A stretch of 64,000 bases of DNA, from the NCBI GenBank assembly GCA_946405625.1, contig CAMJHQ010000011.1:1-64000 (forward strand). The letters run 5' to 3'. This DNA is from an uncultured Lachnospiraceae bacterium (GTDB taxonomy: Bacteria > Bacillota > Clostridia > Lachnospirales > Lachnospiraceae). The notes under the pieces are model-generated. The model made no database searches, was not told the DNA's origin, and saw only the letters and a program-made list of their open reading frames with translations. Each line of letters starts with the position of its first letter. The first letter of the stretch is position 1. Below are positions 11,103 to 41,564 of this stretch, in pieces. Position numbers and translations under genes: made by a program.

Positions 11103-11147
11103 TATCTCCCGACAATAATTCAAAGATTTTTACGAAATATCTTTTTA

Positions 11148-12466: not shown

Positions 12467-12480
12467 CAGTTTCAGATGAA

Positions 12481-13194: not shown

Positions 13195-13256
13195 GTTCAT
13201 CCTCCTATAAAATCATCAATGATATTGAGCTGCCAAAACAGCTCAGTAATATACTT

Positions 13257-13280
13257 CGCACATTCGTATTCCGCTTCGCT
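13257..13280. repeat. Second copy of the GCGAAGCG dispersed motif
   Basis: Minus strand AGCGAAGCGGAATACGAATG, matching the motif at 9986-10009. It lies in the leader of the purO gene, between a GAGCTG/CAGCTC hairpin (13228-13245) and the terminator at 13337-13364. Confidence 0.5.
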
Positions 13281-13336
13281 TCATACTCATAATGCAGCCT
13301 TGCCAAAGTCAACCCGGCTCAACCAAAATAAAGATA

Positions 13337-13364
13337 GCCGCCCGGGTTCTAAAACCCAGACGGC
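13337..13364 (-). terminator. Probable terminator of the LppM-like lipoprotein gene
   Basis: GCCG + GGGTT pair with AACCC + CGGC around a CTAA loop with a 3x3 internal loop; the minus transcript continues with TATCTTTATTTTGG. It is about 110 bases past the stop at 13476. Confidence 0.5.
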
Positions 13365-13475
13365 CGGTTAATCAATAGATCTGTCATGCTCCCCGTGGTA
13401 TACTCCACTCAAATCCGTCAGTCACATGACAATATTCAGTTTACAATCTGCCCCACTCAAAGTCAAGTAGGATTA

Positions 13476-14549
13476 TTACTGATTATTTGTTGGATCATAC
13501 TGCTGAGTCTGATCATATGCCTGCTGTGCATACTGCTGGCTTGCATCATATGCCTGCTGACCATACTGCTGTGCCTGATCTGCTGCCTGCTGGCCATACT
13601 GCTGTGCCTGATCATATCCCTGCTGTGCATACTGCTGACCTGCATCGTATGCCTGCTGACCATACTGCTGTGCCTGATCATATCCCTGCTGTGCATACTG
13701 CTGAGTCTGATCATATGCCTGCTGACCATACTGCTGTGCCTGATCTACTGCCTGCTGGCCATACTGCTGTGCCTGATCGAATCCCTGCTGACCATACTGC
13801 TGTGCCTGATCAAATCCCTGCTGACCTCCGAAGTCTCCGCCAGGACCCGGTGTATAAGGAGCATTAGCCTTCTTGTTTGCAAGCTTCTTAATAATAATGA
13901 TTACTGCTACTATAACTGCTATAGCTATAAGAGCGATAATAGCCCACTTGATTATAACGCCTACAATTGAAAGGCTGAACTCTACATGAATATTTTCTCC
14001 ACCTGCCATTGACAGAAGATCCCATGTAAGAGTCTTTCCACCATTAGATGTGCTTGTAGCATTATGATTCTTTGCACCGTTAGGAAGCTTAATAACTATC
14101 TGCATATAACCGCCATACTGACTGAAATATGACTTATACTGCTCCATCTCATTGGTATCCTCATCGCCAAGGACCTTCCAATCGATAATATAGTTATCTC
14201 CATCCTTTGTTACCTTAAGGCCGTCTTCTTCCATATCAACGGCACCTTCTGTACCCTGCATAGCCTCTGAAATCTTATCAAGATCTACGCCCTTCTTGGT
14301 ACACTTGAAACCTAAGTAGTTATCTTCATTATATAACTCGCATTCCCAGCCCTGTTCTCTCAGCTCATTCATCTGAGGATCCATCTCTGTAGGATCAACC
14401 TCTTCACCTTCCATGCTCATCACAGCATACAGCATGGAAATATCTGCCTTACCATCACTCTTGATGTCCAATGTGGTATCAAATCTCATACAGCCCGAAA
14501 GACCGATAATAAAAATAACACATAAGACTGTTAATAAAACTTTTTTCAT
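13476..14549 (-). CDS. LppM-like lipoprotein with Gln-rich repeat tail
   Basis: 357 residues from the ATG at 14549, preceded by AGGAGG. A signal peptide with lipobox GLSGC (Cys21) starts an extracellular domain of about 180 residues beginning RFDTTLDIKSDGKADI, which resembles the LppM/DUF3153 domain. A membrane helix (about 208-231) and a Lys-rich stop follow, so the C-terminal part should be cytosolic. That tail is ten 11-residue units of the type QQGFDQAQQYG. The arrangement (lipoprotein or signal-anchored domain, TM, Gln/Tyr repeat tail) recalls the Gly/Tyr-rich cytosolic tails of the Bax-inhibitor and DUF4428 proteins nearby. Function unknown. Confidence 0.7.
   Translation of the reverse strand: MKKVLLTVLCVIFIIGLSGCMRFDTTLDIKSDGKADISMLYAVMSMEGEEVDPTEMDPQMNELREQGWECELYNEDNYLGFKCTKKGVDLDKISEAMQGTEGAVDMEEDGLKVTKDGDNYIIDWKVLGDEDTNEMEQYKSYFSQYGGYMQIVIKLPNGAKNHNATSTSNGGKTLTWDLLSMAGGENIHVEFSLSIVGVIIKWAIIALIAIAVIVAVIIIIKKLANKKANAPYTPGPGGDFGGQQGFDQAQQYGQQGFDQAQQYGQQAVDQAQQYGQQAYDQTQQYAQQGYDQAQQYGQQAYDAGQQYAQQGYDQAQQYGQQAADQAQQYGQQAYDASQQYAQQAYDQTQQYDPTNNQ
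13494..13823 (-). repeat. Ten 33-bp coding repeats
   Basis: Exactly 330 bases encode ten 11-residue units (consensus QQAYDQAQQYG). Units differ by a few substitutions, so the array is likely selected in frame and may vary in length between strains. Confidence 0.85.
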
Positions 14550-14591
14550 CTTATCCTCCTGTTTCATATAAATAAATAACACGACGCTATA

Positions 14592-14620
14592 ATAATACTA
14601 TAATACGTTTAATTGAACAA
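14592..14620 (-). promoter_or_regulatory. Promoter of the LppM-like lipoprotein gene
   Basis: Minus strand TTGTTC (14615-14620), 17-base spacer, TATTAT (14592-14597), about 43 bases before the ATG. Confidence 0.5.
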
Positions 14621-14669
14621 CATCTTTTCGGATGATAGCTAACAACTTTTAAAAATCCTATAGCCACGC

Positions 14670-15650
14670 TTAAAGTCCCAGTTCTTTCTTAAGCTCTCCC
14701 TTCACTTTATCCGTAGTAAAAGCAGCCTCTATCGAATTCTTCAGAATATCTTTCTCTTGTTCATCTGTAAGTCCGAAGCTATCCTTAAGATATTCGAATT
14801 CATCAGCCAGAGTTATATTTTCAATGCCCATATCATCCGTATTGACGGTCACCTTAATTCCCTTTTTGAGATAATCCATCAGCGGATAACTGCTCATATC
14901 CGAGATTGCCTTGGTAATCCTGTTACTTGTAGGACACATTTCAAGAGGAATCTCCTTCAATCTGATCATTTCAACCACTTCGGGATCTTCAAAAATCCTG
15001 ACGCCATGTCCTATTCTCGAAGCACCATATTGAATTGCGCTTCTGACACTGTCAGCACTGCCAGCTTCACCTGCATGGATTGTAAAAGGAATTCCCATTT
15101 CCGAAGCTTTTCTGAAAAGGCCCTCATAAAGCGATGTCGGATAAACCCCTTCCGCTCCAGCAAGATCGACAGCTACCACTCCACCGTCCTTAACCAGATA
15201 CCGCTTCGCCACTTTCAGGGTTTCCTCGTTATCGGGTTCATTTCCTTCGCCTCTCATACAGCAAAGTATAAGATTCGACTTCAGTTCCGACCTCTTCATT
15301 CCTTCAAGAGCTGCAAGAACCACTTCCTCCTGTGTCAGTCCCTTTCTTGTATGCAGCTGCGGAGCAAACCGTATCTCAGCATAGATAACTCCCTGTGACT
15401 TGATATTCTCAGCCACAAGTCTTACCGCTTCACTGATACCCTTCCTTGTCTGCATAAGTGTGAGAGGAAGTCCGAAACAATCAAGGAAATCATTCAGACT
15501 GTTACAATCTTCAGGTACGGTAAGTACTTTCTCCAGTTCTTCATCTGTAGTCCCCGGCAGAACTATTTTCTGAAGTTCCGCAAGCTTCTTTGCAATATCA
15601 ACTGTTATTGCTCCATCCAGATGCAGATGCAGTTCAATAAACTTTCCCAT
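14670..15650 (-). CDS. add: Adenosine deaminase
   Basis: 326 residues from the ATG at 15650, with GAGGGG upstream; an in-frame GTG at 15668 lies inside that ribosome site and is unlikely. Hydrolyses adenosine to inosine and ammonia. Zinc ligands and catalytic motifs are visible: HLHLDG (His8, His10), FTIHAGEAG (His and catalytic Glu), RIGHGVRI, EMCPTSN and VNTDDMGI (metal Asp pair). It fits the purine theme of purO/purH nearby. The upstream neighbour is a membrane protein of unknown role 29 bases away. Strong family call; adenine or other 6-aminopurine specificity cannot be excluded by eye. Confidence 0.93.
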   Translation of the reverse strand: MGKFIELHLHLDGAITVDIAKKLAELQKIVLPGTTDEELEKVLTVPEDCNSLNDFLDCFGLPLTLMQTRKGISEAVRLVAENIKSQGVIYAEIRFAPQLHTRKGLTQEEVVLAALEGMKRSELKSNLILCCMRGEGNEPDNEETLKVAKRYLVKDGGVVAVDLAGAEGVYPTSLYEGLFRKASEMGIPFTIHAGEAGSADSVRSAIQYGASRIGHGVRIFEDPEVVEMIRLKEIPLEMCPTSNRITKAISDMSSYPLMDYLKKGIKVTVNTDDMGIENITLADEFEYLKDSFGLTDEQEKDILKNSIEAAFTTDKVKGELKKELGL

Positions 15651-28844: not shown

Positions 28845-29849
28845 TCATCGTATCGCCGCAAAAACAATATACGCAGAGTAGAGAAGTAACATCAGAACTC
28901 CTCCTGATCTTTCAAGCTTCTTCTTTTTGAATACCAAAAGTATTATAAGAATGCTCATAAGGATAAGTACTACCATATCGAAGATCGATGCTCTGTTAAC
29001 TGCTATCGGGTGAATGGTTGAAGATACTCCGAGTATCAGAAGATTATTGAAAATGTTTGAGCCCACGACATTGCCGATTGCAAGTCCGGTCTCACCCTTT
29101 TTAGCAGCAACTATAGACGTAACAAGCTCCGGAAGTGATGTTCCGAGTGCAACAACCGTAAGTCCGATCAGCGTTTCGGTCATTCCGAAAGAACGTGCTA
29201 TATACTGTGAGCTGTAAACAACTGCCTGTCCGCCTGCAACTATAAGCGCAAGTCCGACAAGGATAAGCATAACGCATTTGCCCGGGGTGATATCATTTAT
29301 CTCCTCCTCCGGTGTCGGATTTTTCTTTGCATCATATATGAGCAAGAAAATGTAAACTGCGAAAATCACAAGAAATGAAATCGAAAGTGTACGTGTAACC
29401 TTTCCGATATCTTCTGACATATCCAGTCCGAGTCTTCCTGCAGAGCTGCTTTCAAACAGTTTACCGCTTATAACTGCTCCGAATCCTGTTGCAAAAAAAG
29501 TCAGCACCATCGCACCGATTGAAAAAGGGAAATCTCTCTTAAGAATAATGGCATCTACCGGCACGCTATGAATAACAGCACACACACCCAGCACTACCAT
29601 AAGATTGAAAATGTTTGAGCCTACGACATTACTAAAAGCTATTTCATTAGAGCCCTTAAGTGCAGCCGTAGTACTAACAGCAAGTTCCGGAGCACTTGTT
29701 CCCATAGCAACTATAGTAAGACCGATTATAACCGAAGAAACATGCAGTTTTTTTGCAACAGCAGCGCTTCCGTCAACAAACCAGTCAGCACCCTTTACAA
29801 GTCCTACAAATCCGACTATCAATAGCATAAAGTTTAGAAATAGCAGCAA
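28845..29849 (-). CDS. Ca2+/cation antiporter, CaCA family (YrbG-like), Mn-riboswitch controlled
   Basis: 334 residues from a TTG at 29849, about eight bases after GGGAGGG; ATG codons upstream lack a site and lie nearer the terminator. About ten membrane segments in two homologous halves, each with the alpha-repeat motif: VAMGTSAPELAVS + NVVGSNIFN and VALGTSLPELVTS + NVVGSNIFN. Such proteins exchange Ca2+ or other cations against Na+ or H+. The leader holds a yybP-ykoY riboswitch (30001-30145) with a terminator, so manganese is likely to switch the gene on, and Mn2+ export is a reasonable function. Family strong, substrate inferred. Confidence 0.93.
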   Translation of the reverse strand: MLLFLNFMLLIVGFVGLVKGADWFVDGSAAVAKKLHVSSVIIGLTIVAMGTSAPELAVSTTAALKGSNEIAFSNVVGSNIFNLMVVLGVCAVIHSVPVDAIILKRDFPFSIGAMVLTFFATGFGAVISGKLFESSSAGRLGLDMSEDIGKVTRTLSISFLVIFAVYIFLLIYDAKKNPTPEEEINDITPGKCVMLILVGLALIVAGGQAVVYSSQYIARSFGMTETLIGLTVVALGTSLPELVTSIVAAKKGETGLAIGNVVGSNIFNNLLILGVSSTIHPIAVNRASIFDMVVLILMSILIILLVFKKKKLERSGGVLMLLLYSAYIVFAAIR

Positions 29850-29975
29850 AGTAAATCCCTCCCTGATCATTATCATTTTTATAAATTTCAGTGGGTTACA
29901 AATCAAAGTTATCGTCATACAGACACTAATCTTCAATTCATTCCTTTTGTTTCAGAAGCAGTTGTTATAAAAAAA

Positions 29976-30011
29976 GAGACTTTCACCGCGGTAATTCGCA
30001 GTGAAAGTCTC
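29976..30011 (-). terminator. Riboswitch-controlled terminator
   Basis: GAGACTTTCAC (29976-29986) pairs with GTGAAAGTCTC (30001-30011), and the minus transcript continues TTTTTTT. The 5' strand of this stem on the transcript (GAGACTTTCAC at 30011-30001) is also the 3' strand of the aptamer P1 stem, so ligand binding should prevent termination. Confidence 0.9.
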
Positions 30012-30145
30012 GCAATTTACAATATACTCCGGGGACACAAGTCCCGATCTGACGAAGTTATATAACATCATATACCCAACTTATAAGTCGTAAGGTATTA
30101 CACCACATATCTGTGGAATGATGCAAGCTACTCCCCTTCAACATG
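30001..30145 (-). ncRNA. yybP-ykoY (Mn2+) riboswitch
   Basis: The minus strand reads GTTGAAGGGGAGTAGC at the 5' end (30143-30127 region), contains TTCGTCAG before a GGGAC-TTGT-GTCCC hairpin, and ends GCGAGACTTTCAC. GGGGAGTAGC, the CGTCA element and GCGAGAC are the conserved parts of the yybP-ykoY aptamer. P1 pairs GTTGAAG with CTTTCAC; P2 includes CATCAT/ATGATG, CCACA/TGTGG and ATACC/GGTAT. The terminator overlaps P1. The downstream antiporter is a known gene type for this riboswitch. Confidence 0.92.
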
Positions 30146-30148
30146 ATG

Positions 30149-30280: not shown

Positions 30281-31873
30281 TTACTTTCTTACAAGAAGTG
30301 AATGACCTGTCATTTCAGCAGGCTGCTCAAGTCCCATAACCTCAAGAAGTGTAGGAACGATATCGCAGAGCTTTCCGCCTTCTGCAAGTGTGTATGCAGG
30401 ATCATAATTGTAAAGGATAAACGGAACAGGATTTGTTGTATGAGCTGTATGTGGCTCACCTGTTTCAGCATTGATCATCTGCTCACAATTACCGTGATCT
30501 GCACAGATGAAGAGAACTCCGTCCATTTCCTTAACTGCTTCAACTGCAGTTCCAACGCAGCTGTCCACTGTCTCAACTGCTGCGATTGCAGCTGAAAGAA
30601 CTCCTGTATGGCCAACCATGTCAGGGTTAGCAAAGTTGATGATGATCACATCATATTCACCGGATCTGATAGCTGCATTAAGCTTCTCGCTAACTTCAGG
30701 AGCACTCATCTCAGGCTGAAGATCATATGTTGCAACAGCAGGTGAGTTAACAAGGATTCTCTCCTCATCCTTGTTTGGCTCTTCAATACCGCCGTTGAAG
30801 AAGAATGTTACATGAGCATACTTCTCTGTCTCTGCAAGTCTGAGCTGCTTGAGTCCCTTCTTTGCAAGGTATTCGCCAAATGTATTCGTAATCTCCTGCT
30901 TCTTGAATGCTACAAACTTGTTAGGGATTGTCTCATCATAATCCTTGAAACATACATATGTAAGAGGCATATATCCGTTAGCACGCTTAAGGTACTTGAT
31001 ACATTTTGTATCTTCAGCATCACCTTCCTGTGCAGCGATATCTTCATCTGTAAAACAGAATGCCTTTGTAATCTCACGTGCTCTGTCAGGACGGAAGTTG
31101 AAGAAGATTACAGAATCTCCTGCCTTTACGAGTGAAAGCGGATTTCCAGCTTCATCTGTGATAACTGTAGGAAGCACGAACTCATCTGTTACTCCGTTAT
31201 CATAAGAATCCTGCATAGCCTGAACAGGATCTGTAGCCTTAACGCCCTCTCCTGTTACAAGTGAATCATACGCTTTCTGTACACGATCCCAGTTATTATC
31301 TCTGTCCATTGCATAATAACGTCCTGAAAGTGAAGCAACCTTACCAACGCCGATTTCCTTTGTCTTATCAACAAGCTCCTGAAGGTAATCCTTACCTGAT
31401 GCAGGAGGTGTATCTCTTCCGTCAAAGAAAGGATGAATGTAAACATTCTCAAAGCCTTCCTTCTTACAAAGCTCAAGGATAGCATAGAGATGTGTATTGT
31501 GGCTGTGAACACCACCATCTGAAAGAAGTCCCCAGAGATGAAGGTCACTGTTCTTTTCCTTACAATTGTTGATTGCACGGAGGAGCTCCTCGTTCTTGAA
31601 GAAATCTCCGTCCTCTATATACTTTGTAATAAGAGTAAGATCCTGGTAAATGATTCTTCCGGAACCTATGTTCATATGACCAACTTCTGAGTTACCCATC
31701 TGTCCGTCAGGAAGACCCACTGCAAGACCTGATGCATAACCCTTCTGGAAAGGGCATTCTGCCATCAGCTTATCGATATTAGGTGTCTTACCCATGTAAA
31801 CCGCATTTGCTTCATGATTATCTGAAAGTCCGAATCCATCAAGGACCATCAGTACTACAGGTTTTTTACTCAT
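30281..31873 (-). CDS. gpmI: 2,3-bisphosphoglycerate-independent phosphoglycerate mutase
   Basis: 530 residues. Interconverts 3- and 2-phosphoglycerate in glycolysis using two Mn2+ ions. Metal Asp12 in MVLDGFGLS, catalytic Ser62 in MGNSEVGHMNIG, further motifs HPFFDGRDTPP, SLSGRYYAMDRDNNWDR, NFANPDMVGHTG and CADHGNCEQM. Length slightly above the usual 510. AGGAGAAAG lies before the ATG. Monocistronic; no clear terminator seen downstream. The enzyme is Mn-dependent and sits beside an Mn-riboswitch controlled antiporter, perhaps by chance. Strong call. Confidence 0.97.
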   Translation of the reverse strand: MSKKPVVLMVLDGFGLSDNHEANAVYMGKTPNIDKLMAECPFQKGYASGLAVGLPDGQMGNSEVGHMNIGSGRIIYQDLTLITKYIEDGDFFKNEELLRAINNCKEKNSDLHLWGLLSDGGVHSHNTHLYAILELCKKEGFENVYIHPFFDGRDTPPASGKDYLQELVDKTKEIGVGKVASLSGRYYAMDRDNNWDRVQKAYDSLVTGEGVKATDPVQAMQDSYDNGVTDEFVLPTVITDEAGNPLSLVKAGDSVIFFNFRPDRAREITKAFCFTDEDIAAQEGDAEDTKCIKYLKRANGYMPLTYVCFKDYDETIPNKFVAFKKQEITNTFGEYLAKKGLKQLRLAETEKYAHVTFFFNGGIEEPNKDEERILVNSPAVATYDLQPEMSAPEVSEKLNAAIRSGEYDVIIINFANPDMVGHTGVLSAAIAAVETVDSCVGTAVEAVKEMDGVLFICADHGNCEQMINAETGEPHTAHTTNPVPFILYNYDPAYTLAEGGKLCDIVPTLLEVMGLEQPAEMTGHSLLVRK

Positions 31874-31973: not shown

Positions 31974-32052
31974 ACTGTTTTATTAATTTATAATATTTCA
32001 CTGTTTTATTAATTTATAATATTTAACTGTTTTACTATTTATATAATATTTC
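31974..32052. repeat. Three 26-bp AT-rich repeats downstream of feoB
   Basis: ACTGTTTTATTAATTTATAA units start at 31974, 32000 and 32026 (period 26, the third diverged). They lie 65-145 bases after the feoB stop. No other feature is seen in 31874-32117. Confidence 0.65.
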
Positions 32053-32117
32053 ATTGTTGACCCGGCAAAGTTATTCTGAGTTTCATGCAATCCGGTTATT
32101 TATAGATTTTCTGATAC

Positions 32118-34643
32118 TCAAAGAATCATACCGAGTACCATATAAGCCACAAGAGATACTATCCACGCAACGATGCACTGAAGAAGTACTATCCTGATTG
32201 CCCAGAGTCTGCCGAGTTCTCTTTTAACCGATGCTATTGCTGCAACGCAAGGCGTATAAAGAAGACAGAATATAAGGAGTGCTCCGGCTGCAGCTGTACT
32301 AATAGCCGTAACAAGCGCATCTGTACTTCCGAAAAGGATAGATAATGTCGAAACTACACTTTCCTTTGCAATAAAACCAGTAATGAGTGCCGTTGCAATT
32401 CTCCAGTCGCCGAATCCCATAGGCTTAAAGATTGGCGCAATGATTCCCGCAAGCTTTGCTAAAATGCTGTCTCCCGCATCTGCGGCAAGTCCGAGTCCGG
32501 GTGTAAATGATCTGAGGAACCATATAGCAATGGTTGCACAGAAAATAATCGTAAAGGCTTTCATAAGGAAATCCTTTGCCTTCTCCCACAGGAGCTGGAG
32601 TACATTTTTCGCACCCGGCATACGGTAATTCGGAAGCTCCATAACGAAAGGAACTGCCTCACCCTTTAAAGCCGTTGCCTTTGATATAAGTGCTACTATG
32701 ATTCCCGTAAGGATTCCGAGCAGGTAAAGGCCGATCATAACAAGTGCTCCCTTTCCCGGGAAAAATGCAGCTATGAAGAATCCGTATATCGGAAGCTTCG
32801 CGGTACAGCTCATAAATGGAATGAGCATTACAGTCAGCTTACGATCTCGCTCCGACGGAAGCGTACGGCTCGCCATAACTCCCGGCACGGAACATCCGAA
32901 TCCGACAAGCATAGGAACTATACTTCTTCCCGACAGACCGATACGTCTGAGCGGTCTATCCATGACAAATGCAATACGAGCCATATATCCCGTATCTTCA
33001 AGCAGTGACAGGAAGAAGAAAAGTATTATGATGATCGGCAGGAAAGAAATAACACTTCCCACTCCGTTAAATATACCATCTATGATAAGTGAATGAATGA
33101 CATCGTTTACATTTGATGCGGTAAGCAGTGCATCAACTTTGCCGGCGAGAAAATCTATTCCGCTTTCCAGCAGTCCCTGAAGCCACGCTCCGACCACGTT
33201 GAAGGTAAGCCAGAAAACGAGTCCGATGATAAGAATAAATGCGGGAATAGCTGTAAACCTTCCTGTCAGAATCTTATCGATTTTTTCACTTCTCTCTCTT
33301 TCACGACTGACTTCCGGCTTTACGACAGTTTCCTTAACAAGTTTATCTATAAACGAGAAACGCATATCAGCCATAGCGGCCGATCTGTCAAGACCGCGCT
33401 CCTCTTCCATCTGAATTATGATATGCTCGATCATTTCTTTCTCATTCTGAGAAAGCTCAAGAATATCTATAACTCTCTGATCGCCCTCTATGATCTTGTT
33501 GGCAGCAAATCTTACCGGAATATCCGCTCTCTTCGCATGATCCTCGATAAGATGCATGATTCCGTGAAGGCATCTGTGAACCGCCCCGCCATGATCAGAC
33601 TCATCACAGAAATCCTTCTTGCCCGGACTCTCCTGATATTTTGCAACATGAAGCGCATGATTTATAAGCTCATCAACGCCCTCGTTTTTTGCAGCGGAAA
33701 TAGGAACAACCGGAATTCCGAGGAGTTCCTCCATCTCGTTAATTCTGACAGAGCCTCCGTTGCCACGCATTTCATCCATCATATTAAGTGCAAGGACCAT
33801 CGGAACATCAAGCTCGATAAGCTGCATCGTAAGATAAAGATTTCTCTCTATATTTGTTGCATCGACGATATTAATTATACCCTTCGGCTTCTCACCGATT
33901 ATATACTGACGCGACACTATCTCTTCATCCGTGTACGGTGATAGTGAATAAATGCCCGGCAGATCAACAACCTCAGTATTTGATTTTCCCTTGATAGAGC
34001 CGCTCTTTCTATCGACCGTAACTCCCGGAAAATTACCCACATGCTGATTTGAACCGGTCAGCTGATTGAAGAGCGTTGTCTTACCACTATTCTGATTTCC
34101 CGCAAGAGCAAATGTAAGCAACGTTCCCTCCGGAAGTTTCTTCTCGGTTGCCTTCTCATGAAATATACCACCTTCTCCGAGTCCCGGATGATGATGATGG
34201 TGATGATGAGAACCACTCTTTTTATCCGACTTCTGTTTCGATGACGAATTTATATCAGATGGATTATCTCTTTTATCCGAAGCATTCTTTCCGGAGGCTT
34301 TCTTCTCGGAAGCCTTCTTCCCCGAAGTTTTATTATCCGAGGATTGATTCTCCGACATATTCTTATCGGACTCCCGCGCCCTCAATTTGTCCGTTTCGGA
34401 ACGAATCACCTCAGATATTCCTTCTTTTCTGATATCTATCTGCTCCGCCTCTGAAAGTCTGAGTGTAAGCTCATAACCGTGAATTCTGAGTTCCATCGGG
34501 TCGCCCATCGGAGCAAACTTAATCAGAGTCACTTCCGCTCCCGGAATAACTCCCATATCAAGAAAATGCTGTCTGGTTGCGCCTTCGCCCCCTACAGCTT
34601 CAATAACAGCAGACTGCCCTGCCTTCAAGTCTCTAAGTGTCAT
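32118..34643 (-). CDS. feoB: FeoA-FeoB fusion ferrous iron transporter
   Basis: 841 residues from the ATG at 34643 (MTLRDLKAGQ), with GGGAG 11 bases upstream; an ATG six codons earlier has no site. Residues 1-75 are a complete FeoA SH3-like domain. A linker of about 90 residues, rich in Lys, Ser, Asp and Asn, includes seven consecutive His. Then the FeoB G domain (GNQNSGKTTLFNQLTG, DLPGIYS, LNMMDE), helical GDI region, and about eight membrane segments with Gate motifs. Imports Fe2+. DUF4250 precedes it in the same run. Strong call. Confidence 0.96.
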   Translation of the reverse strand: MTLRDLKAGQSAVIEAVGGEGATRQHFLDMGVIPGAEVTLIKFAPMGDPMELRIHGYELTLRLSEAEQIDIRKEGISEVIRSETDKLRARESDKNMSENQSSDNKTSGKKASEKKASGKNASDKRDNPSDINSSSKQKSDKKSGSHHHHHHHPGLGEGGIFHEKATEKKLPEGTLLTFALAGNQNSGKTTLFNQLTGSNQHVGNFPGVTVDRKSGSIKGKSNTEVVDLPGIYSLSPYTDEEIVSRQYIIGEKPKGIINIVDATNIERNLYLTMQLIELDVPMVLALNMMDEMRGNGGSVRINEMEELLGIPVVPISAAKNEGVDELINHALHVAKYQESPGKKDFCDESDHGGAVHRCLHGIMHLIEDHAKRADIPVRFAANKIIEGDQRVIDILELSQNEKEMIEHIIIQMEEERGLDRSAAMADMRFSFIDKLVKETVVKPEVSRERERSEKIDKILTGRFTAIPAFILIIGLVFWLTFNVVGAWLQGLLESGIDFLAGKVDALLTASNVNDVIHSLIIDGIFNGVGSVISFLPIIIILFFFLSLLEDTGYMARIAFVMDRPLRRIGLSGRSIVPMLVGFGCSVPGVMASRTLPSERDRKLTVMLIPFMSCTAKLPIYGFFIAAFFPGKGALVMIGLYLLGILTGIIVALISKATALKGEAVPFVMELPNYRMPGAKNVLQLLWEKAKDFLMKAFTIIFCATIAIWFLRSFTPGLGLAADAGDSILAKLAGIIAPIFKPMGFGDWRIATALITGFIAKESVVSTLSILFGSTDALVTAISTAAAGALLIFCLLYTPCVAAIASVKRELGRLWAIRIVLLQCIVAWIVSLVAYMVLGMIL

Positions 34644-34697
34644 TTTATGATAAACTCCCATGAATCATTTAAATAAACTACTTGATCGATTTATTTT

Positions 34698-34877
34698 TTA
34701 CGGTAAAAACCTGTTCTGCTTTTCATCATACTTCATCCCGATAGAAGCAAGCTTTTCGGTGATTTCTTTCTCATCCAGCCCCAGACTCTTAACCAGCTCT
34801 TCGAGCGACGGATAATTATCCCTGAGCTGTGTATTCAGATAGCTCATCAGCATCACAGGATCCTTTGGTATATTCAT
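34698..34877 (-). CDS. DUF4250 domain protein
   Basis: 59 residues, too short for usual cut-offs. ATG at 34877 follows AAGGAGACGAT. The sequence begins MNIPKDPVMLMSYLNTQLRD and continues NYPSLEELVKSLGL...EKLASIGMKYDEKQNRFLP, which matches the DUF4250 family found in many Clostridia. It is probably a small helical cytosolic protein. It lies 54 bases before the FeoAB start in the same orientation, so co-transcription with iron uptake is likely. Function unknown. Confidence 0.88.
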   Translation of the reverse strand: MNIPKDPVMLMSYLNTQLRDNYPSLEELVKSLGLDEKEITEKLASIGMKYDEKQNRFLP

Positions 34878-34889
34878 ATCGTCTCCTTA

Positions 34890-34920
34890 TTCACCGTAGG
34901 GGACAAGCCCCCACGATGAA
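34890..34920. other. Leader hairpin before DUF4250-feoAB
   Basis: TTCACCGTAGGGG (34890-34902) and CCCCACGATGAA (34909-34920) pair with a few mismatches. It is in the leader, just before the ribosome site. It has no U run, so it is a leader structure or part of a dispersed palindromic repeat. Confidence 0.4.
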
Positions 34921-34970
34921 ATGTTAGTCATATTTAACATAGATAATTTAAATCTATCTTGATATTTTGT

Positions 34971-35118
34971 CAATTACATTTACTCCACATTCTCCAGTGC
35001 CAATTACATTTACTCCACATTCTTCAGTGTCAACTACATTTACTCCACATTCTTCAGTGTCAACTACATTTACTCCACATTCTTCGTCGCAAATATTTAC
35101 TCCACATTCTTCAGTGCC
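34971..35118. repeat. 30-bp repeats copied from the 3' end of the FtsX-type gene
   Basis: Four units of exactly 30 bases (34971, 35001, 35031, 35061) follow the stop at 35097. Each holds TTTACTCCACATTCTTCAGT, which is the complement of the last codons and the stop of the gene (ACTGAAGAATGTGGAGTAAA). The array is a tandem duplication that started in the coding end. Confidence 0.85.
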
Positions 35119-37862
35119 ATGTCCATCGGTATCTTCTTTATCCTTCTGTAATCTAAGAGCATAATGATAAGATATGCCGCAAAAACGAAGACAAACATTT
35201 TAACAAAGCCCAAAGGTGAGATGACAAAATCAAACCATCCTTCCATGCTCATTATGTACTCACGGAAGACTGCGGCCATTCCGAAATAACTTGCCACAAT
35301 TCCGATGCCGCACGAGAGAATGACAACCAGAGTTGTCGATGTCATATAAAGCGAGCTGATCTCCCTGTTTTCATAACCGAGGATTTTTACCATCGATATT
35401 GAGTTCTCATTTTTCTCGATGATTATCTTTGTCAGAAGATATATAAGCACTGCAGAAAGGATAACACATACATACTGAAAGTAATTCATATATGACCCGA
35501 TCGAATGATCAAGCTGTCTTGTCACCTTCAGCATATCATCTTCTGTTATTGTAGTAGCTATATATTCATCATCGATATCGCTTAATGCTTCATCAGACAT
35601 ATATCCCGTAAAGTAGCTGCTGTCCTCATCAAAGATATCTCTGTAATTATCAATCGGCATGAATACCGTAAGACTTCCCGCATAATCATATATTCCGGCT
35701 ACCGTGAATTCATAATCCTGCTTTTCATATTTCTCATCAAGCTTAAATGTATCACCGATTGAAAGTCTGTATTTATCCGCAAACGTACTCGATATATATA
35801 CATTGTTTTCTTCGAGATCCGGAAGATTCTTTATATACTTACTGCTGTCCTCAATGCCGTAAACCGCAATTGTTTCTTTATAATTTTTTCCTTGATACTG
35901 AAGACTTCTCATTGCTATTTTTTCTGCCGATGGGTCCGCTGTCTCAATAGGATTTCCGTCCTCATCTTCGCAATCAATCAAAATTGTCTGATGCTTTGCA
36001 AACATAAAATCTTTAACTTTATCCTGATATTTTTTAAGTGATTCGGGAAATCCGACACACATCGCCATCATAAGCATTACAAATGTTATGCCCACGATAA
36101 GCACAAGATAATTCGGTATATTCTGAAGCAGTATCCTTGTGCGGAATCTTGTAAGGAACTTCCACTTTGGAAGTCTCAAAGCCTTCTTTCTCTTTTTCAT
36201 CTTCAGATCATGTCTGAGGAACTTGAGTGGTGAAAACTTCAACATTCTCGTAATAACAAACAGGTTAATGATAAACATCAGAACGACCGGAACCAACGTT
36301 GTCTTTATAAATGCATCCGGTGTCCAGTAGGTCTCGTAAGTCGGAAGGCTATAGGAATTATAATACATGTTGATAACAACCTGCTTAAACACCGTATAGC
36401 CGAGCACATTTCCTATGATCGCTCCGATAAGAGTAACCAGTACCGGCATTGTCATATAGTGTCTCAAGAGCTCAGATCTCGTATAGCCCGACGCACGGAG
36501 TGTTCCGATGACCGATGCCTCTTTCGTGATCGTATTGCTGATCGTTATCGCAAAGACAAATGCAAGAACCGCCACGATTATATAAAGCATAATTCCCGCA
36601 AGTACCTTATCTCTTCCCATATCATTTGTTGCAAAATGTATCGCTTCATTTACATAGTTAGGTAAGAAATTTTCTATATCGATTTCCTTAACCGCAGCCT
36701 GTGATATAAGAGCGGCCATTACATTTTCCGAAAGGTCCTTCTCCTCAATATCATCCGCAGGTTTTTCTTTATAAAACCAGGCATAGTTATAATGTATATT
36801 CTGATCTATCCTGTCCCATCCCTCTTTTGTAACCATCGCCACATCAAAGTTGATCGCATCGAACATACTGTCCGTCGGTTTCTCATAAAGCGTACTGTAA
36901 TTAACGAGAGCAATGAGCGCTGTAACCGTATACTCTTTACCGCTGACAGTAATCTTATCTCCGACCTTAACTCCTACATTTGCAGCATGCATTCTGTCGA
37001 TTGCAATCTCACTGTCGGTCTTTGGCATTTCGCCTTCATGGATGCTGTAAAGATTGATATCGGTTCTATCCATAAATACACGGATCTTTCCGGTTTTCTT
37101 TTCTGAATCTCTGTTTCCGACAGATTCCTCCGACGCATCCTTATAGAAATTCTCATATATTTTTATCGGTACAGGCTTGTAGTCCGGATTCTCCAGATCA
37201 TACTTATCCTTAACCTTGTCATATTCTTCATTGACCTTATCTTCAACCTCTTTATAAGCTTCCTCTTTTGCTTCATCCAGAATGTCCTGATATTCTTTGC
37301 TGTCTATGAAACTGTCATAAGCTTCTTTATAAGCCTCATCGTAATATTCATCAATTGTTGCTTCCAGATTCTCATCTACCAGCTCATCTATCATAGCCGT
37401 TTTCTCAGAATCCGGAACTTCCATTCCCATTGCTTTATAAGTCTCTATCTCAGCTTCGACATTTTTAGTAACCTCAGCACGGAGATTATCTTCTATTCCC
37501 TCTCGTACTGCCTTATCTATCTCATTAGGAAGCTCCTCGGCAACCGCCTTCTCCACTTCCTTATCAGCTTCACTTCTCCCCTTATCCAGGAAGTATTTTC
37601 TTATATCAGCCTTCTCTCCGGATTCCAACGCTTTAACAGTCTCTTCATCCAACGCTTCACTAACTTCAAAACAACCGTCTTCAAGATTATACTCAGTTAT
37701 CTTATTCTCTGCTGAAGTCAGCATACTGTTATTCGCTACAAACATTCCCGATATAAAACCGATCATAACCACCAGAAATACAGCAATAACAAGATACTTG
37801 CGCCAATCACCGAGAAGTTCTTTTATTACTCTTTTCCTTAAAGGATTTTTTACCTTTTTCAT
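35097..37862 (-). CDS. FtsX/MacB-type ABC transporter permease with long acidic external domain
   Basis: 921 residues. One N-terminal helix (about 23-45), then an external region of about 400 residues that begins with an acidic, Lys/Glu-rich coiled coil (about 90-235) and ends in an MacB-like folded domain. Helices at about 420-445, 470-490 and 520-545 form one FtsX unit, then a second MacB-like unit (about 590-780) and three more helices at the C-terminus. This double-FtsX layout is that of Firmicutes exporters of lipids, peptides or antimicrobials. Works with the ATPase 18 bases upstream. Its leader holds a Mn-type riboswitch. Substrate unknown. Confidence 0.9.
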   Translation of the reverse strand: MKKVKNPLRKRVIKELLGDWRKYLVIAVFLVVMIGFISGMFVANNSMLTSAENKITEYNLEDGCFEVSEALDEETVKALESGEKADIRKYFLDKGRSEADKEVEKAVAEELPNEIDKAVREGIEDNLRAEVTKNVEAEIETYKAMGMEVPDSEKTAMIDELVDENLEATIDEYYDEAYKEAYDSFIDSKEYQDILDEAKEEAYKEVEDKVNEEYDKVKDKYDLENPDYKPVPIKIYENFYKDASEESVGNRDSEKKTGKIRVFMDRTDINLYSIHEGEMPKTDSEIAIDRMHAANVGVKVGDKITVSGKEYTVTALIALVNYSTLYEKPTDSMFDAINFDVAMVTKEGWDRIDQNIHYNYAWFYKEKPADDIEEKDLSENVMAALISQAAVKEIDIENFLPNYVNEAIHFATNDMGRDKVLAGIMLYIIVAVLAFVFAITISNTITKEASVIGTLRASGYTRSELLRHYMTMPVLVTLIGAIIGNVLGYTVFKQVVINMYYNSYSLPTYETYWTPDAFIKTTLVPVVLMFIINLFVITRMLKFSPLKFLRHDLKMKKRKKALRLPKWKFLTRFRTRILLQNIPNYLVLIVGITFVMLMMAMCVGFPESLKKYQDKVKDFMFAKHQTILIDCEDEDGNPIETADPSAEKIAMRSLQYQGKNYKETIAVYGIEDSSKYIKNLPDLEENNVYISSTFADKYRLSIGDTFKLDEKYEKQDYEFTVAGIYDYAGSLTVFMPIDNYRDIFDEDSSYFTGYMSDEALSDIDDEYIATTITEDDMLKVTRQLDHSIGSYMNYFQYVCVILSAVLIYLLTKIIIEKNENSISMVKILGYENREISSLYMTSTTLVVILSCGIGIVASYFGMAAVFREYIMSMEGWFDFVISPLGFVKMFVFVFAAYLIIMLLDYRRIKKIPMDMALKNVE

Positions 37863-37880
37863 AATCGTCTCCTTTTTTGC

Positions 37881-38597
37881 CTACCAATCAAGTTCCTCAG
37901 CCGATACCTTGTTCTCATTGATATCGTTTTGTCTTACAACTCCGTCGCGGAGCTTTATGACATGGTCAGCCATATTCTTTATGGCTTCATTATGAGTAAC
38001 CATTATGATCGTATTTCCGTATTTTTGATTTACATCTTCTATAAGTTTTAGGATTTCCTTGGAAGTGTTATAGTCGAGCGCTCCGGTCGGCTCATCGCAG
38101 AGAAGGATGTCCGGATTCTTTACGATTGCTCTGCCGATGGACACTCTCTGCTGCTGTCCACCTGAAAGCTGATTAGGAAGTTTGTGACGATGCTTATAAA
38201 GACCGAGTGTTTCAAGCAGCTCATCTATTTCAAGCGGACTTTCGGATAAATATGCACCTACCTCTACATTTTCCTTAACATTCAGATTCGGTATAAGGTT
38301 ATACATCTGAAATACATATCCAAGATGCTTACGTCTGTACTGAGTGAGTCCCTTCTCTCCCATTTCTTCAAGCTTATCTCCGTTAATGGATATATATCCC
38401 GAATCCGGGCTGTCAATTCCTCCGATAATGTTCAGCAGTGTGGATTTACCGGAACCCGATGGTCCGAGCAGTACACAGAACTCACCTTTACTTACTGTAA
38501 AATCCATTCCCTTAAGAACTTCCTGCCTGGACTCTCCGCTTCCGAAGCCCTTCTTCAGATCAACGATTTCGAGAAACTTTCTTTCCTGCTGTGTCAT
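37881..38597 (-). CDS. ABC transporter ATP-binding protein (MacB/LolD type)
   Basis: 238 residues. Walker A GPSGSGKST, Q-loop YVFQMYNL, signature LSGGQQQRVSIGRA, Walker B ILLCDEPTGALD, H-loop MVTHN. This is the MacB/LolD/YknY class that partners FtsX-type permeases. GAAGGGAG lies before the ATG. First gene after the riboswitch-terminator leader at 38657-38898, so both ABC genes should be switched together. Strong family call. Confidence 0.96.
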   Translation of the reverse strand: MTQQERKFLEIVDLKKGFGSGESRQEVLKGMDFTVSKGEFCVLLGPSGSGKSTLLNIIGGIDSPDSGYISINGDKLEEMGEKGLTQYRRKHLGYVFQMYNLIPNLNVKENVEVGAYLSESPLEIDELLETLGLYKHRHKLPNQLSGGQQQRVSIGRAIVKNPDILLCDEPTGALDYNTSKEILKLIEDVNQKYGNTIIMVTHNEAIKNMADHVIKLRDGVVRQNDINENKVSAEELDW

Positions 38598-38656
38598 AAT
38601 AATTCTCCCTTCCTATTACAGATAATTAAAATGTAAAATCTCCTTACAAAACAAAA

Positions 38657-38728
38657 GAGACCTGCTTGCAGACTTATATCCGCTACAGAATATACCTGTA
38701 GTGGTCTATAAGTCTGCAAACAAGTCTC
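38657..38728 (-). terminator. Riboswitch-controlled terminator before the ABC operon
   Basis: A long stem: GAGAC...TTGCAGACTTATA (38657-38679) pairs with TATAAGTCTGCAA...GTCTC (38707-38728); the minus transcript continues TTTTGTTTTG. Its 5' half on the transcript (GAGACTTGTTTGCAGA) is also the 3' half of the aptamer P1 stem, so the two folds exclude one another. Confidence 0.85.
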
Positions 38729-38898
38729 ACTGATTATTCATAACCCGAATTGTTAACTACGATGCTTTCATCGTAACAATTGCGTTGACGAGTTTATGTA
38801 CAGACAGCTGTGCATTTTATAAATGTCATAATGCCAGTCACGCATTTACTTGTTTCATAAAGCTCTTCTGCCTGCCGGTTACTCCCCTGAATGCAGAT
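38712..38898 (-). ncRNA. yybP-ykoY-like (Mn2+) riboswitch before an ABC transporter
   Basis: The minus strand reads TCTGCATTCAGGGGAGTAAC at the 5' end (38897-38878), has CTCGTCAAC before a strong hairpin (AATTGTT + ACGATG paired with CATCGT + AACAATT), and ends GTGAGACTTGTTTGCAGA. These match the yybP-ykoY layout GGGGAGUAgC / CGUCA / GCGAGAC, with a G-to-A change in the first motif. P1 pairs TCTGCA with TGCAGA plus CAG with CTTG. P2 begins TTTATG/CATAAA. The aptamer and terminator overlap as in the copy at 30001. Good call by structure; the gene type downstream is unusual. Confidence 0.82.
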
Positions 38899-38900
38899 TT

Positions 38901-38929
38901 ATAATAACAAACATGTGAACATATGTCAA
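38901..38929 (-). promoter_or_regulatory. Promoter of the ABC riboswitch transcript
   Basis: Minus strand TTGACA (38924-38929), 17-base spacer, TATTAT (38901-38906). Start of transcription would fall at the first base of the aptamer, about 38894-38897. Confidence 0.8.
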
Positions 38930-39010
38930 TATGTGAATATGTATAAAAGTTGATTCATTTATGTTATTTTTTTGTGAGTAATCCTGTTATTTTTTCATTT
39001 TATATTATTT

Positions 39011-39445
39011 CTATCTTTGCTTTTCACCGATTGCCTTATTCATCTTCTCGGCAAGATTCTTATTATACTTCATGAAGCATATCCAGATGATGAGACCGAT
39101 TACTATTACACTTACAACTGTGATAACGCAAGCCGTGATCCCTCTCTCCACCGGAATCCATCCGACAAAAGATGCAGCTGCAAAATATATAGCAAAGCCG
39201 ATTCCAAGATGTACCAGAGATGCAAGCGTCGGAGATATCCTGTCCGAATTATAGAGAAGTGTCGGAACTCCAAATCCCAGACCTGTTACCACACAAGCAA
39301 GCGCCATCTTGGTAAAGCCATAATCAGTAAGAGTAAAGTTTCCTCCGTCCTTTATATCAAACATAATCCCGATAACTATAAATATAATAAAGCTCATCGC
39401 TATACTGATGAATACTCTTTTCATGATTTCTTTAAACATCTTCAT
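39011..39445 (-). CDS. DUF3021 family membrane protein
   Basis: 144 residues with four membrane segments and a Lys-rich C-terminus, matching DUF3021. AGGAGG lies six bases before the ATG. It follows a LytTR regulator gene by 14 bases; this pairing of LytTR and DUF3021 is common in Firmicutes, where the membrane protein is thought to restrain or sense for the regulator. It is not part of the riboswitch unit at 38712. Confidence 0.88.
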   Translation of the reverse strand: MKMFKEIMKRVFISIAMSFIIFIVIGIMFDIKDGGNFTLTDYGFTKMALACVVTGLGFGVPTLLYNSDRISPTLASLVHLGIGFAIYFAAASFVGWIPVERGITACVITVVSVIVIGLIIWICFMKYNKNLAEKMNKAIGEKQR

Positions 39446-39459
39446 GCCATTCCTCCTTT

Positions 39460-39903
39460 CTACAGCCCAAGATATTTCTTCAGCTGTGGCACAAACTTCC
39501 TTGATATATATTCCTTCTCGCCATTCTTCATATGGAGCAGCATAACTCCGTTGAAGGATGGCTCCACGCTTTCGAGATATTTCAGATTGATTGCAGCCGA
39601 CTTTGAAACCTGCATGAAGTCTTTTCCGAGGATATCCAAAAGCTCATACATTCTCTTTCCGATACGATAAGTATTCTCATCGGTAACTATATAAACCTTC
39701 TCGGATTCAACTCTGATAAGTACTATATGCTCCGGATCGATCACAACCATTCTCTCGTCCAGGCTTCCGATGATAACGCCCTTTCCATTTCCGAATTGTG
39801 ATATTTCCCGCGCCAACTCTGCAATCTCGGGCGTCAGTTCTCCCGCATGTATCACTGCAAATGGTTCTTTTATATTTTCAGAGATATTCATATCAACCCG
39901 CAT
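39460..39903 (-). CDS. LytTR-family transcription regulator
   Basis: 147 residues, no receiver domain. The N-terminal 50 residues are a small alpha/beta region; the C-terminal about 95 residues are the LytTR DNA-binding domain (IVLIRVESEKVYIVT, ILGKDFMQVSKSAAINLKYLESVEPSF, EYISRKFVPQLKKYLG). GGAGG lies seven bases before the ATG at 39903. Operon with DUF3021. Such pairs regulate their own operon and often a nearby transporter; the ABC operon downstream is a candidate target. Family call strong. Confidence 0.94.
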   Translation of the reverse strand: MRVDMNISENIKEPFAVIHAGELTPEIAELAREISQFGNGKGVIIGSLDERMVVIDPEHIVLIRVESEKVYIVTDENTYRIGKRMYELLDILGKDFMQVSKSAAINLKYLESVEPSFNGVMLLHMKNGEKEYISRKFVPQLKKYLGL

Positions 39904-40005
39904 ATCTATTCCTCCGGTTTTTGTTCAAAATCTTCTCTGCTTCTTTGTAAATGTATCACAGAACTATGTTAACATATTCAAGTTATGATTTCTATAAAGT
40001 GCTCA

Positions 40006-40055
40006 CACGTGTCGGCTTTGAATCCAATCACCTCCTTGCACGTGTCGGCTTTGAA
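40006..40055. repeat. Copy of the 3' end of the 40028-40603 gene after its stop
   Basis: CACGTGTCGGCTTTGAA at 40039-40055 (coding end) recurs at 40006-40022 after the stop, a 33-base step. Confidence 0.65.
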
Positions 40056-40603
40056 AAGAAGAGCATCCATATTCCGAAGCCAAGCTTGAGCAGGCCATCT
40101 GCTGTAAGGAATATTGCTGCCGGCACTGATGATACTGCATATCCACTTACAGCTATCGCTATGCATAATGCTCCGAGTACAGTCATCGAACGTCCATGTA
40201 CAAAATAGAAGATCAGAAAATGTACTCCAGTTGCAAGGCTTACTCCGAGCCAGATCATTCTCCAGTTCCAGCTTGGAATAAAAGGACCAGCGATAAAAAA
40301 CATCAGGATAAAGAGTGCTGCAATTCCAAAGTAGATCATCTTTATCTGGAATTGACTTGTGGGACCATCAGAAAGCTTTGCCCTTACCTTACGGTTCACA
40401 TTTGCAATAAAGAAACTCACATAATATCCCGCAAGAAAGATTATCGGATTAACTATGAAACGTCCTCCGAAAACAAGCGAAACAATTATTACCGCTCCCA
40501 CCAGTATAAGCCAGAGCCCACATGACCTTTTGTTATTAAACTCCAGCTCCGACACCATTTCCCTGAAAGTCTTCTTTTTCTCAACGCTGCTATATCTTTC
40601 CAT
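40028..40603 (-). CDS. Six-TM membrane protein of unknown function
   Basis: 191 residues. A charged N-terminus of about 28 residues is followed by about six membrane segments and a short basic end (SKPTRARR). No family recognised with confidence; size and layout are like small conserved membrane proteins of Lachnospiraceae. Its ribosome site GGAGGG lies seven bases before the ATG, inside the 3' arm of a hairpin (40610-40658), so translation may be controlled by that structure. The coding end has been duplicated after the stop. Confidence 0.6.
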   Translation of the reverse strand: MERYSSVEKKKTFREMVSELEFNNKRSCGLWLILVGAVIIVSLVFGGRFIVNPIIFLAGYYVSFFIANVNRKVRAKLSDGPTSQFQIKMIYFGIAALFILMFFIAGPFIPSWNWRMIWLGVSLATGVHFLIFYFVHGRSMTVLGALCIAIAVSGYAVSSVPAAIFLTADGLLKLGFGIWMLFFSKPTRARR

Positions 40604-40609
40604 TATAAA

Positions 40610-40658
40610 ACCCTCCGTTTCGTCTTTGGATGAACCAATAATAACGAAAACGGAGGGT
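40610..40658 (-). promoter_or_regulatory. Leader hairpin that holds the ribosome site
   Basis: ACCCTCCGTTT (on transcript, 40658-40648) pairs exactly with AAACGGAGGGT (40620-40610), extended by CG/CG past a bulge; an inner TTGG/CCAA stem sits in the loop. The 3' arm holds the GGAGGG site for the ATG at 40603. It may act as a translational switch; the T run after it is TTTTATAAT, so it could also weakly terminate. Confidence 0.55.
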
Positions 40659-40745
40659 ATAATGTTGTAAAAATCGGTAAGTGGCAGATTTCGGACGGTA
40701 AGATGCAGCTACTTCAGCCATTACTTCTTCTATCACAAAAGACTT

Positions 40746-41564
40746 TCAGTCCCAGATTGCTTCTTCATTTGTGGCCTTTTCTCCCCAGTAGGAAGCCCAT
40801 TTCTCACAGAACAGCCATGTATATGGGATTTTCTTTTCAGTTCTGATTCTCTGAAATAGCGGGATATTTCCCCAGCTAAGTGACGGTATACCGATAACAA
40901 ACGGATATAGTGGTCCGAGTAGAAGCGCCTGAAATGTGTGGCCGAACTCATGTACGGCAACCTTCTCGCAATATGACCGTCTGCCCTCGTCTCCTTCCGT
41001 TTCATACGGCGTAAAGATAAACATTCCCATGGAGATGCCGCTGTTCTTCGGCCATACAATTCTTAAAACACCATGATAGTATCTGTGAGGACAATGCCTG
41101 TACTTAAGATAGAGTAAGAATCCCGCAAAAGTCTGAAGATGTCCCCAGGTCCAGTGAATAAATATCCTGAGAGGATACCATCTTTCATTTCTTTCTTTTG
41201 ATAACACAGCAAGCATAAGCCCTGTCAGATATAAACCGATAAGATAAGCAAGCACATCACGCAGATCACAGCTTCCGCCGAGAATAATACCGATCAGCGA
41301 ACCCTTCTCAATTCCGAGAATACCCGTAATGTCGATCAACTGCAGAAGTTCCGCCATCCATCCGAACATATAACATATAAACGGAAGAACATATACAGAG
41401 AAGATGCTGTCTTTTGCAAACAGGGCCGCCCTTATCAGGAAATATAAAGTAGGTATAACAAATATATCTCCCACATATCCCCGGACAAATCCGGTCGCCC
41501 ATTTTCCGATTATGATTTCGATTATAAGAAGCACCGAAAATGATATTAAATGCCTAGCTCGCAC
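40746..41564 (-). CDS. DUF2809-HExxH membrane protein
   Basis: 272 residues from a GTG at 41564, about eight bases after AAAGGAG. The first 130 residues, with four membrane segments and the motif IIGKWATGFVRGYVGD...ELLQLIDI, match DUF2809. The C-terminal part is soluble and holds VAVHEFGHTFQALLLGPLY, an HExxH zinc-peptidase-like motif, then VIGIPSLSWG and FCEKWASYWGEKA. A second metal ligand is likely the Glu in CEKWA. The C-terminal region is also known as a stand-alone conserved protein, so this looks like a fusion. Substrate unknown; enzymatic activity unproven. Confidence 0.75.
   Translation of the reverse strand: MRARHLISFSVLLIIEIIIGKWATGFVRGYVGDIFVIPTLYFLIRAALFAKDSIFSVYVLPFICYMFGWMAELLQLIDITGILGIEKGSLIGIILGGSCDLRDVLAYLIGLYLTGLMLAVLSKERNERWYPLRIFIHWTWGHLQTFAGFLLYLKYRHCPHRYYHGVLRIVWPKNSGISMGMFIFTPYETEGDEGRRSYCEKVAVHEFGHTFQALLLGPLYPFVIGIPSLSWGNIPLFQRIRTEKKIPYTWLFCEKWASYWGEKATNEEAIWD

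Follow-up and report, generated by a model that had tools for sequence, protein, structure and literature searches.

The RNA considered here resembles the Mn2+ riboswitches of the yybP-ykoY family. In the Lactococcus lactis member, Mn2+ stabilizes helix P1.1 and blocks a terminator (PMC11087558). A review passage (PMC11477304) places the class commonly before efflux genes and also labels its members OFF switches, a label that fits neither the L. lactis work nor the placement given in the same review. Loop L3 reads UCA41AU43UC in L. lactis and ACA48U49ACU52 in Xanthomonas oryzae. According to PMC6754395, the L3 adenosine contacts Mn2+ via N7, and the A48U substitution abolishes the stable docked state.

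The window is the whole stretch of 64,000 nucleotides analyzed from contig CAMJHQ010000011.1 of an uncultured Lachnospiraceae bacterium. It contains a leader at 38929-38648 on the minus strand, ahead of an FtsX-type ATP-binding cassette (ABC) gene pair. The best explanation, held with high confidence, is that this leader is a transcriptional ON Mn2+ riboswitch controlling a Type VII ABC pair. Its anatomy and homology point to a divergent yybP-ykoY member, and both the ligand and the ON direction would follow from analogy with the L. lactis and X. oryzae members.

Anatomy of the leader and the proposed switch

The minus-strand order after the promoter-like site is GGGGAGTAAC (beginning at 38887), CTCGTCAACGC, a strong hairpin, GTGAGAC (38730-38724), and a long hairpin with a T tract, which lies ~50 bases from the start of the ABC ATPase gene; CGTCA occupies 38790-38786. 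The aptamer, referred to as riboswitch A, spans 38714..38902. Helix P1.1 (38896-38888/38723-38714) is followed by the L1 strand GGGAGTA (38886-38880), which stands with GAGAC (38728-38724). P1.2 (38879-38876/38732-38729) and P2 (38875-38868/38807-38800) come next. The P3 arm is made up of P3.1 (38798-38789/38747-38739), L3 with the sequence TCAACGC (38788-38782), and P3.2 (38781-38748). A linker, AATAAT, occupies 38738-38733.

The intrinsic terminator (38648..38728) is composed of a hairpin at 38728-38657 and a T tract at 38656-38648. A generic terminator scan did not list it; direct folding gives a predicted -48.5 kcal/mol. Its 5' arm holds the 3' strand of L1 and the 3' strand of P1.1 (38723-38714). 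The fold of the leader beats 200/200 shuffles (z -8.5), a score to which the terminator contributes part.

The helices are supported by two alignments. In thirteen window-type leaders, the window included, 32 pairs were scored; 90.1% of their cells are paired, and 13 of the pairs are changed on both sides. The covariation score of 0.358 is reached by 0/500 shuffles, and slid versions stay at or below 0.104. P1.2, for example, occurs as ACCG/CGGT, ATCG/CGAT, and GCTG/CAGC. The same 13 leaders were used to build a covariance model, R1. In the R1 family alignment (61 matches in 60 sources), 31/32 pairs are changed on both sides, a count that leans towards the structure because the members were fitted to the model and the sources were mostly picked for holding a match or candidate. 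The structure was also derived from these leaders, so covariation counts in general lean its way. P1.1, P1.2, P2, P3.1, and P3.2 are all backed by covariation. At the junction, where solved members have four helices meeting, P1.2, P2, and P3.1 of the window type are joined by a linker of six apparently unpaired bases, and a short fourth helix may form there.

The metal-binding loops are intact. The third nucleotide of L3 (38786) is in the place of the invariable adenosine that coordinates Mn2+, which is A41 in L. lactis and A48 in X. oryzae. The window L3 is UCAACGC, and the third base is A in 61/61 aligned members, where L3 begins with UCA in 53, ACA in 7, and CCA in 1. The L1 strand GGGAGUA is found in 61/61 members, and its partner is GAGAC in 56 and AAGAC in 5. 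In the model alignment, the L3 of the Escherichia coli alx leader is UCAUUAC. A shifted ligand was originally suspected from UCAACGC in place of an ACAUACU type. This is unlikely given UCAAUUC in L. lactis (PMC6754395) and UCAUUAC in alx.

A second model, R3, was built from 11 leaders, with the window and its nearest relative L074 left out to avoid circularity. R3 finds riboswitch A in the 64-kb window at 96.3 bits (E 6.6e-26). A plain terminator or attenuator hairpin, with no aptamer and with motifs present by chance, would fit a terminator that is very strong on its own. This explanation has next to no probability, because the aptamer helices covary, the match to R3 is independent, and the loops are conserved in 61/61 rows, albeit rows chosen by a model.

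The switch itself is proposed by analogy with the L. lactis member. The hairpin with its T tract begins in the L1 3' strand in 57/61 members, including both copies in the window. Without Mn2+, the P1.1 3' strand would be captured by the terminator hairpin, and transcription would end ahead of the ABC genes. With Mn2+, metal-mediated docking of L1 and L3 would keep P1.1 closed. The terminator would then be blocked, and the ABC ATPase and permease would be made. The initial annotation had placed a promoter, CGTCA, a strong hairpin, GTGAGAC, and a terminator here, and all are found on the minus strand. Its proposal that the terminator 5' arm is the P1 3' strand holds for P1.1. Its assignment to a yybP-ykoY-type Mn2+ riboswitch with terminator control is likewise supported, at the level of sequence, by covariation, intact loops, the overlap of P1.1 and terminator, and the R3 match.

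The promoter-like site is of the sigma-70 type (TTGACA-17-TATTAT, 38901..38929, minus strand) with a TG ahead of the -10, and matches the consensus at 11/12 positions. It is the best of 12 such sites in 32000-40800. The region has fewer of them than its shuffles (mean 22.4), so the promoter is a consensus match only. A LytTR regulator and a DUF3021 membrane protein are encoded directly upstream (39011-39903, minus strand), also in L074, and the regulator may act on this promoter.

Detection of the family and its target genes

RF00080 is the Rfam model of yybP-ykoY. Its gathering score, 45 bits, is a detection threshold rather than a structural feature, and the window leader lies below it. Several results count against the assignment. 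The initial annotation had proposed an RF00080 search as a check and had named the lack of a significant match as a refutation; the search gave no gathering-level match to the leader and nothing up to E 10 in 38600-39010. No riboswitch copy in the window's own genome reaches the threshold. Across 31 genomes (the own genome and 30 relatives), RF00080 gave 3 matches at E 0.001, none above the cut-off and none in the own genome, while in the same scan 5/14 control genomes had matches, above the cut-off in 2. R3 does not match the mntP leader of E. coli, and R1 with filters off matches it weakly, at 9.2 bits (E 0.25).

RF00080 is not decisive here, because the alx leader fails it too. In E. coli K-12, run as a control, RF00080 fails to match the alx leader up to E 5 and gives the mntP leader 41.6 bits. 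Both genes are annotated as Mn2+ exporters, and alx is termed riboswitch-controlled in a title cited in PMC10550928. The homology-built models do recognize alx: R3 at 24.1 bits (E 1.3e-4) and R1, filters off, at 23.4 bits (E 1.4e-5). R3 also matches the leaders of CaCA genes (L172, L189) and MntP genes (L173, L174), as well as those of an MntP-ZIP gene (L003) and a TMEM165/Gdt1-type gene (L001), the last two genes read by eye. The window leader thus shares one covariance family with CaCA, MntP, and E. coli alx leaders.

A second element in the window, riboswitch B, is a predicted Mn2+ riboswitch of the same family. It is located at 29993-30147 on the minus strand, has a terminator at 30011-29969, and is matched by R3 at 38.2 bits (E 8.4e-9); R3 finds nothing further in the window up to E 10. 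RF00080 gives it 21.6 bits against the gathering score of 45. The gene under riboswitch B is a CaCA-type Na+/Ca2+ exchanger (28845..29936, minus strand) that shares 77% identity, across 333 residues, with the region following the L189 element, whose protein matches PF01699 at E 5e-67.

The own genome has six R1 matches at E 1 and zero RF00080 matches at E 0.001. Two copies, both in the window, precede the ABC operon and the CaCA exchanger. The others precede a flotillin gene (Band_7 and Flot), a DUF3137 gene, a DUF3137-LemA pair with an MgtE gene ~300 bases further, and an unassigned membrane protein that is followed by a Transgly_assoc protein. A CPBP protease label for the gene behind one copy was withdrawn, as Pfam finds no family. 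Six copies by a homology-built model and none by RF00080 suggest that the annotation of Mn regulons in such bacteria is probably incomplete.

R1 was also run on 61 genomes with stricter filters, under which it missed riboswitch B, found by the own-genome scan. Matches were obtained in 24 genomes, 42 in total. The first recognized gene is the ABC gene in 13, DUF3137(-LemA) in 10, flotillin in 9, CaCA in 6, MntP in 2, and another gene in 2, tallies that may lean towards ABC because R1 was trained on ABC leaders. CaCA and MntP genes are known kinds of target of Mn riboswitches, and their presence here supports Mn2+ as the ligand. In Bacillus subtilis, the gene of the TerC protein MeeY carries a Mn-responsive riboswitch, and flotillins, FtsH, YknW, and MgtE are among the interactors listed for MeeY and a second TerC protein, MeeF (PMC10550928). 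This set is similar to the membrane proteins of the present regulon.

Two DUF3137 loci are described as observations. L197 has one operon-like run of DUF3137, LemA, and an MntP-ZIP fusion under a window-type riboswitch, which links LemA to Mn efflux. In L194 (5108-5216, minus strand), part of the aptamer, from P3 to GAGAC, is apparently tandem-duplicated by eye ahead of a DUF3137-LemA operon.

An aptamer of yybP-ykoY shape could also have shifted to another divalent ion, e.g., Fe2+. This would be in line with the failure of RF00080 even at E 10, the adjacent FeoAB gene, and the iron-type palindromes described below, which precede most of the examined ABC orthologs. It is nevertheless very unlikely, since the Mn-binding A of L3 is retained in the same register as in L. 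lactis, the alx leader shares that register, and family members precede CaCA and MntP genes, one of them within the same window. The Mn2+ riboswitch is the preferred identity of the RNA.

The initial annotation had proposed the FtsX-type ABC pair as an aptamer target and suggested a survey of homologous loci, which bears the proposal out as a recurrent arrangement. The ortholog set is made up of the best 80 named loci in genome_contigs, out of at least 565 confirmed matches, and so represents the nearest relatives. The ATPase gene start is present in 73, and in 71 the upstream sequence runs to 350 bases or more. The nearest among the matches listed is Lachnospiraceae bacterium UBA2864 (94%). 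The leader is found before the ABC genes in 19/71, with 12 of the window type and 7 nearer the textbook form or intermediate. Of these R1-matched upstream regions, 12 are R1 training rows, and the other 7 have E values from 1.4e-8 to 2.2e-4. A family sample of 200 genomes has the leader in 3/43 ortholog loci, with L055 only at E 0.012; 4/43 loci have a cut or short upstream region, and some genomes are also in the named set. The figure of 19/71 therefore overstates the general frequency, because the named loci are the closest relatives.

Several relatives have, by eye, a second promoter-like site between the terminator and the ABC start, so the riboswitch need not be the sole input there. As an observation by eye, this site occurs with an inverted repeat of the ATATGAA-N6-TTCATAT kind in L076, L077, L078, L079, L082, L101, L110, and L155; a site of this type was not seen in the window. 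The repeat suggests a further repressor acting on the ABC genes of these relatives.

The ABC transporter and the iron-type palindrome

The ABC pair belongs to the Type VII (FtsX/YbbP-like) systems. It is composed of an ATPase of 238 residues (37881..38597, minus strand; PF00005, E 3.1e-37) and a permease of 921 residues (35097..37862, minus strand; PF02687, PF12704). Pfam gives the permease two FtsX stretches and one MacB_PCD stretch, and the ATPase is a separate protein, so Type VII features are present. An acidic helical insertion at about residues 87-218 is missing in several orthologs in an alignment of 12 permeases, the window included. A strict link between riboswitch and insertion was rejected in both directions: L029 is without the insertion though its upstream region, L055, has the riboswitch, and L008 has the insertion while its upstream region, L036, is without the riboswitch.

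An AlphaFold2 model of the permease, made from the 12 sequences, has a mean predicted local distance difference test (pLDDT) score of 77.7 and a predicted template modeling (pTM) score of 0.60. The top Foldseek match is E. coli YbbAP, with a root-mean-square deviation of 12.5, so the domains are placed differently. The leading matches of VIA-align are BceAB-S, YbbAP, and HrtBA, and the fold also matches LolCDE and MacB. A search with the permease sequence profile against solved structures gave nothing at E 0.01, and the NCBIfam YbbP equivalog model NF041854 gives 26.4 bits against a cut-off of 999. The fold match says nothing on cargo and does not exclude a metal.

A direct efflux pump for Mn2+ (or Fe2+), like other Mn-riboswitch targets, would suit the neighboring CaCA exchanger and FeoAB. 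Mn riboswitches also commonly precede Mn2+ efflux genes, as a passage of PMC11477304 states. This role is decidedly unlikely, because the fold matches YbbAP, BceAB, HrtBA, LolCDE, and MacB, and YbbAP, with TesA, has been proposed to pull hydrophobic compounds out of the inner membrane (PMC12646458).

To our knowledge, Type VII systems (YbbAP, BceAB, HrtBA, LolCDE) do not pump bare ions. A role in handling a small metal-binding molecule, metallophore or porphyrin-like, is somewhat less improbable than a pump but still doubtful. A nonribosomal peptide synthetase (NRPS) neighbor, searched with L105 protein queries within the fetched flanks, is found in 1/80 loci, L105 itself. No enzyme of this kind is among the six window proteins scanned, to which this search was confined. 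L105, from Ruminococcus flavefaciens Y1, is a separate observation made by eye: at 4537-14725 the ABC pair is flanked by a TetR-like gene on one side and by large NRPS-like genes on the other. The NRPS-like genes are preceded by an iron-type palindrome, and the locus may be a metallophore cluster.

The iron-type palindrome is GTTAG-N6-CTAAC. With at most one mismatch, it occurs within 350 bases upstream of the ABC genes in 48/71 named loci and is exact in 28. These upstream regions hold 66 boxes, where 1.6 would be expected judging by the remainder of these loci, and shuffled upstream regions have 1.5 loci with a box on average (maximum 6 in 200 runs). The family sample has the box before the ABC genes in 26/39, exact in 19. 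Of the 71 upstream regions, 11 have the riboswitch only, 40 the box only, and 8 both, so that 59 carry at least one.

In other parts of the 80 loci, 31 exact boxes are listed, one of which is still of an ABC gene (L099). By eye, many precede genes for FeoA, FeoB, DtxR-family proteins, flavodoxin, DUF3793, or Cys-rich small proteins, and others precede unrelated-looking genes. The fetched flanks contain FeoB homologs in 10/80 loci and DtxR-family genes in 5/80. The own genome has exact boxes in 4 places, near FeoA-like, DUF3793-like, small Cys-rich, and peptidase-like genes. In the window, a similar palindrome with one mismatch lies upstream of FeoAB (34923..34938); 1.34 such sites are expected per window by chance, so it is weak alone. 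A similar sequence is in the same place in L074.

Because the palindrome before most examined orthologs also precedes iron-uptake genes, the ABC pair is probably part of a high Mn:Fe response. Its target there would be the envelope, or an organic cargo with a link to metal, and not bare Mn2+. This reading is evenly poised and much less certain than the reading of the riboswitch. The export of Mn2+ or a Mn-linked compound, put forward in the initial annotation, was not established, given the Type VII resemblance and the palindrome in 48/71.

A broader possibility, tentative and short of even confidence, is that the Mn2+ riboswitch of window-type Lachnospiraceae runs an envelope programme and an ABC machine wired to Mn:Fe by two unrelated sensors. 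The envelope programme would comprise the YbbP/FtsX-type ABC, flotillin, and DUF3137-LemA, besides metal efflux. The sensors would be the RNA switch, ON at high Mn2+, and the iron-type palindrome, ON at low Fe in most examined orthologs. Other results weigh on the opposite side. The window's own ABC upstream region has no palindrome even at two mismatches, and 12/71 ortholog upstream regions have neither riboswitch nor box. The exact box in 4 places of the own genome compares with 2 for a reversed control pattern. One DtxR-family gene was found in the own genome, and the palindrome is iron-type by gene company only.

Neighboring features and comparison with known systems

The block on one strand runs in the order riboswitch A, ABC ATPase, ABC permease, FeoA-FeoB, gpmI, riboswitch B, and CaCA exchanger. 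The FeoA-FeoB fusion (32118..34661, minus strand; TIGR00437, 584.7 bits) is the next minus-strand open reading frame (ORF) of at least 80 residues downstream of the permease. The ORF at 30281..31873 (minus strand, 530 residues) is presumably gpmI, a phosphoglycerate mutase of a family that we take to be Mn-dependent. L074 keeps the block order, and in G232 two such riboswitches, before ABC and CaCA genes, are separated by ~10 kb of a single contig.

A 30-base tandem repeat, present in five copies, spans 34971-35119, where the permease gene ends and ahead of FeoAB. Four of the copies carry TTGACA or TTGGCA by eye, and the array may multiply -35 elements. The window also contains a ZMP-ZTP riboswitch (13347-13435, minus strand, 59.3 bits) and a Clostridiales-1 RNA (838-1009, plus strand, 109.2 bits).

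The FtsX-type ABC pair is a recurrent and apparently unlisted target of this riboswitch. No link of yybP-ykoY to FtsX or Lachnospiraceae was found in a literature search in which subscription coverage was thin and an earlier listing of targets is possible. Together with flotillin, yybP-ykoY was found only in one work, on TerC. The regulon offers testable regulatory clues for this ABC family, for bacterial flotillin operons, and for DUF3137-LemA, three membrane systems about which little is understood. It also places an ABC machine where Mn and Fe control may meet, so that the effect of Mn excess on the envelope becomes testable.

Among Type VII ABC exporters, BceAB and HrtBA have a domain layout different from that of the window permease. 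E. coli YbbAP (PDB 9ge6) has ~10% identity to the window permease, which differs from it by the acidic helical insertion in the first extracellular domain.

Compared with described yybP-ykoY members, the window RNA has the same L1 (GGGAGUA/GAGAC) and an L3 with the invariable A third. Its P1.1 is likewise a predicted switch helix that overlaps an intrinsic terminator, and its family is linked to CaCA and MntP genes. The window type differs in a sequence too divergent for RF00080, although its L3 form, UCANNNC, is that of L. lactis and alx. It also differs in having an apparently unpaired ARUAAU-type linker at the place of the four-way junction of solved members, in a long variable P2, and in the extra targets FtsX ABC, flotillin, and DUF3137-LemA.
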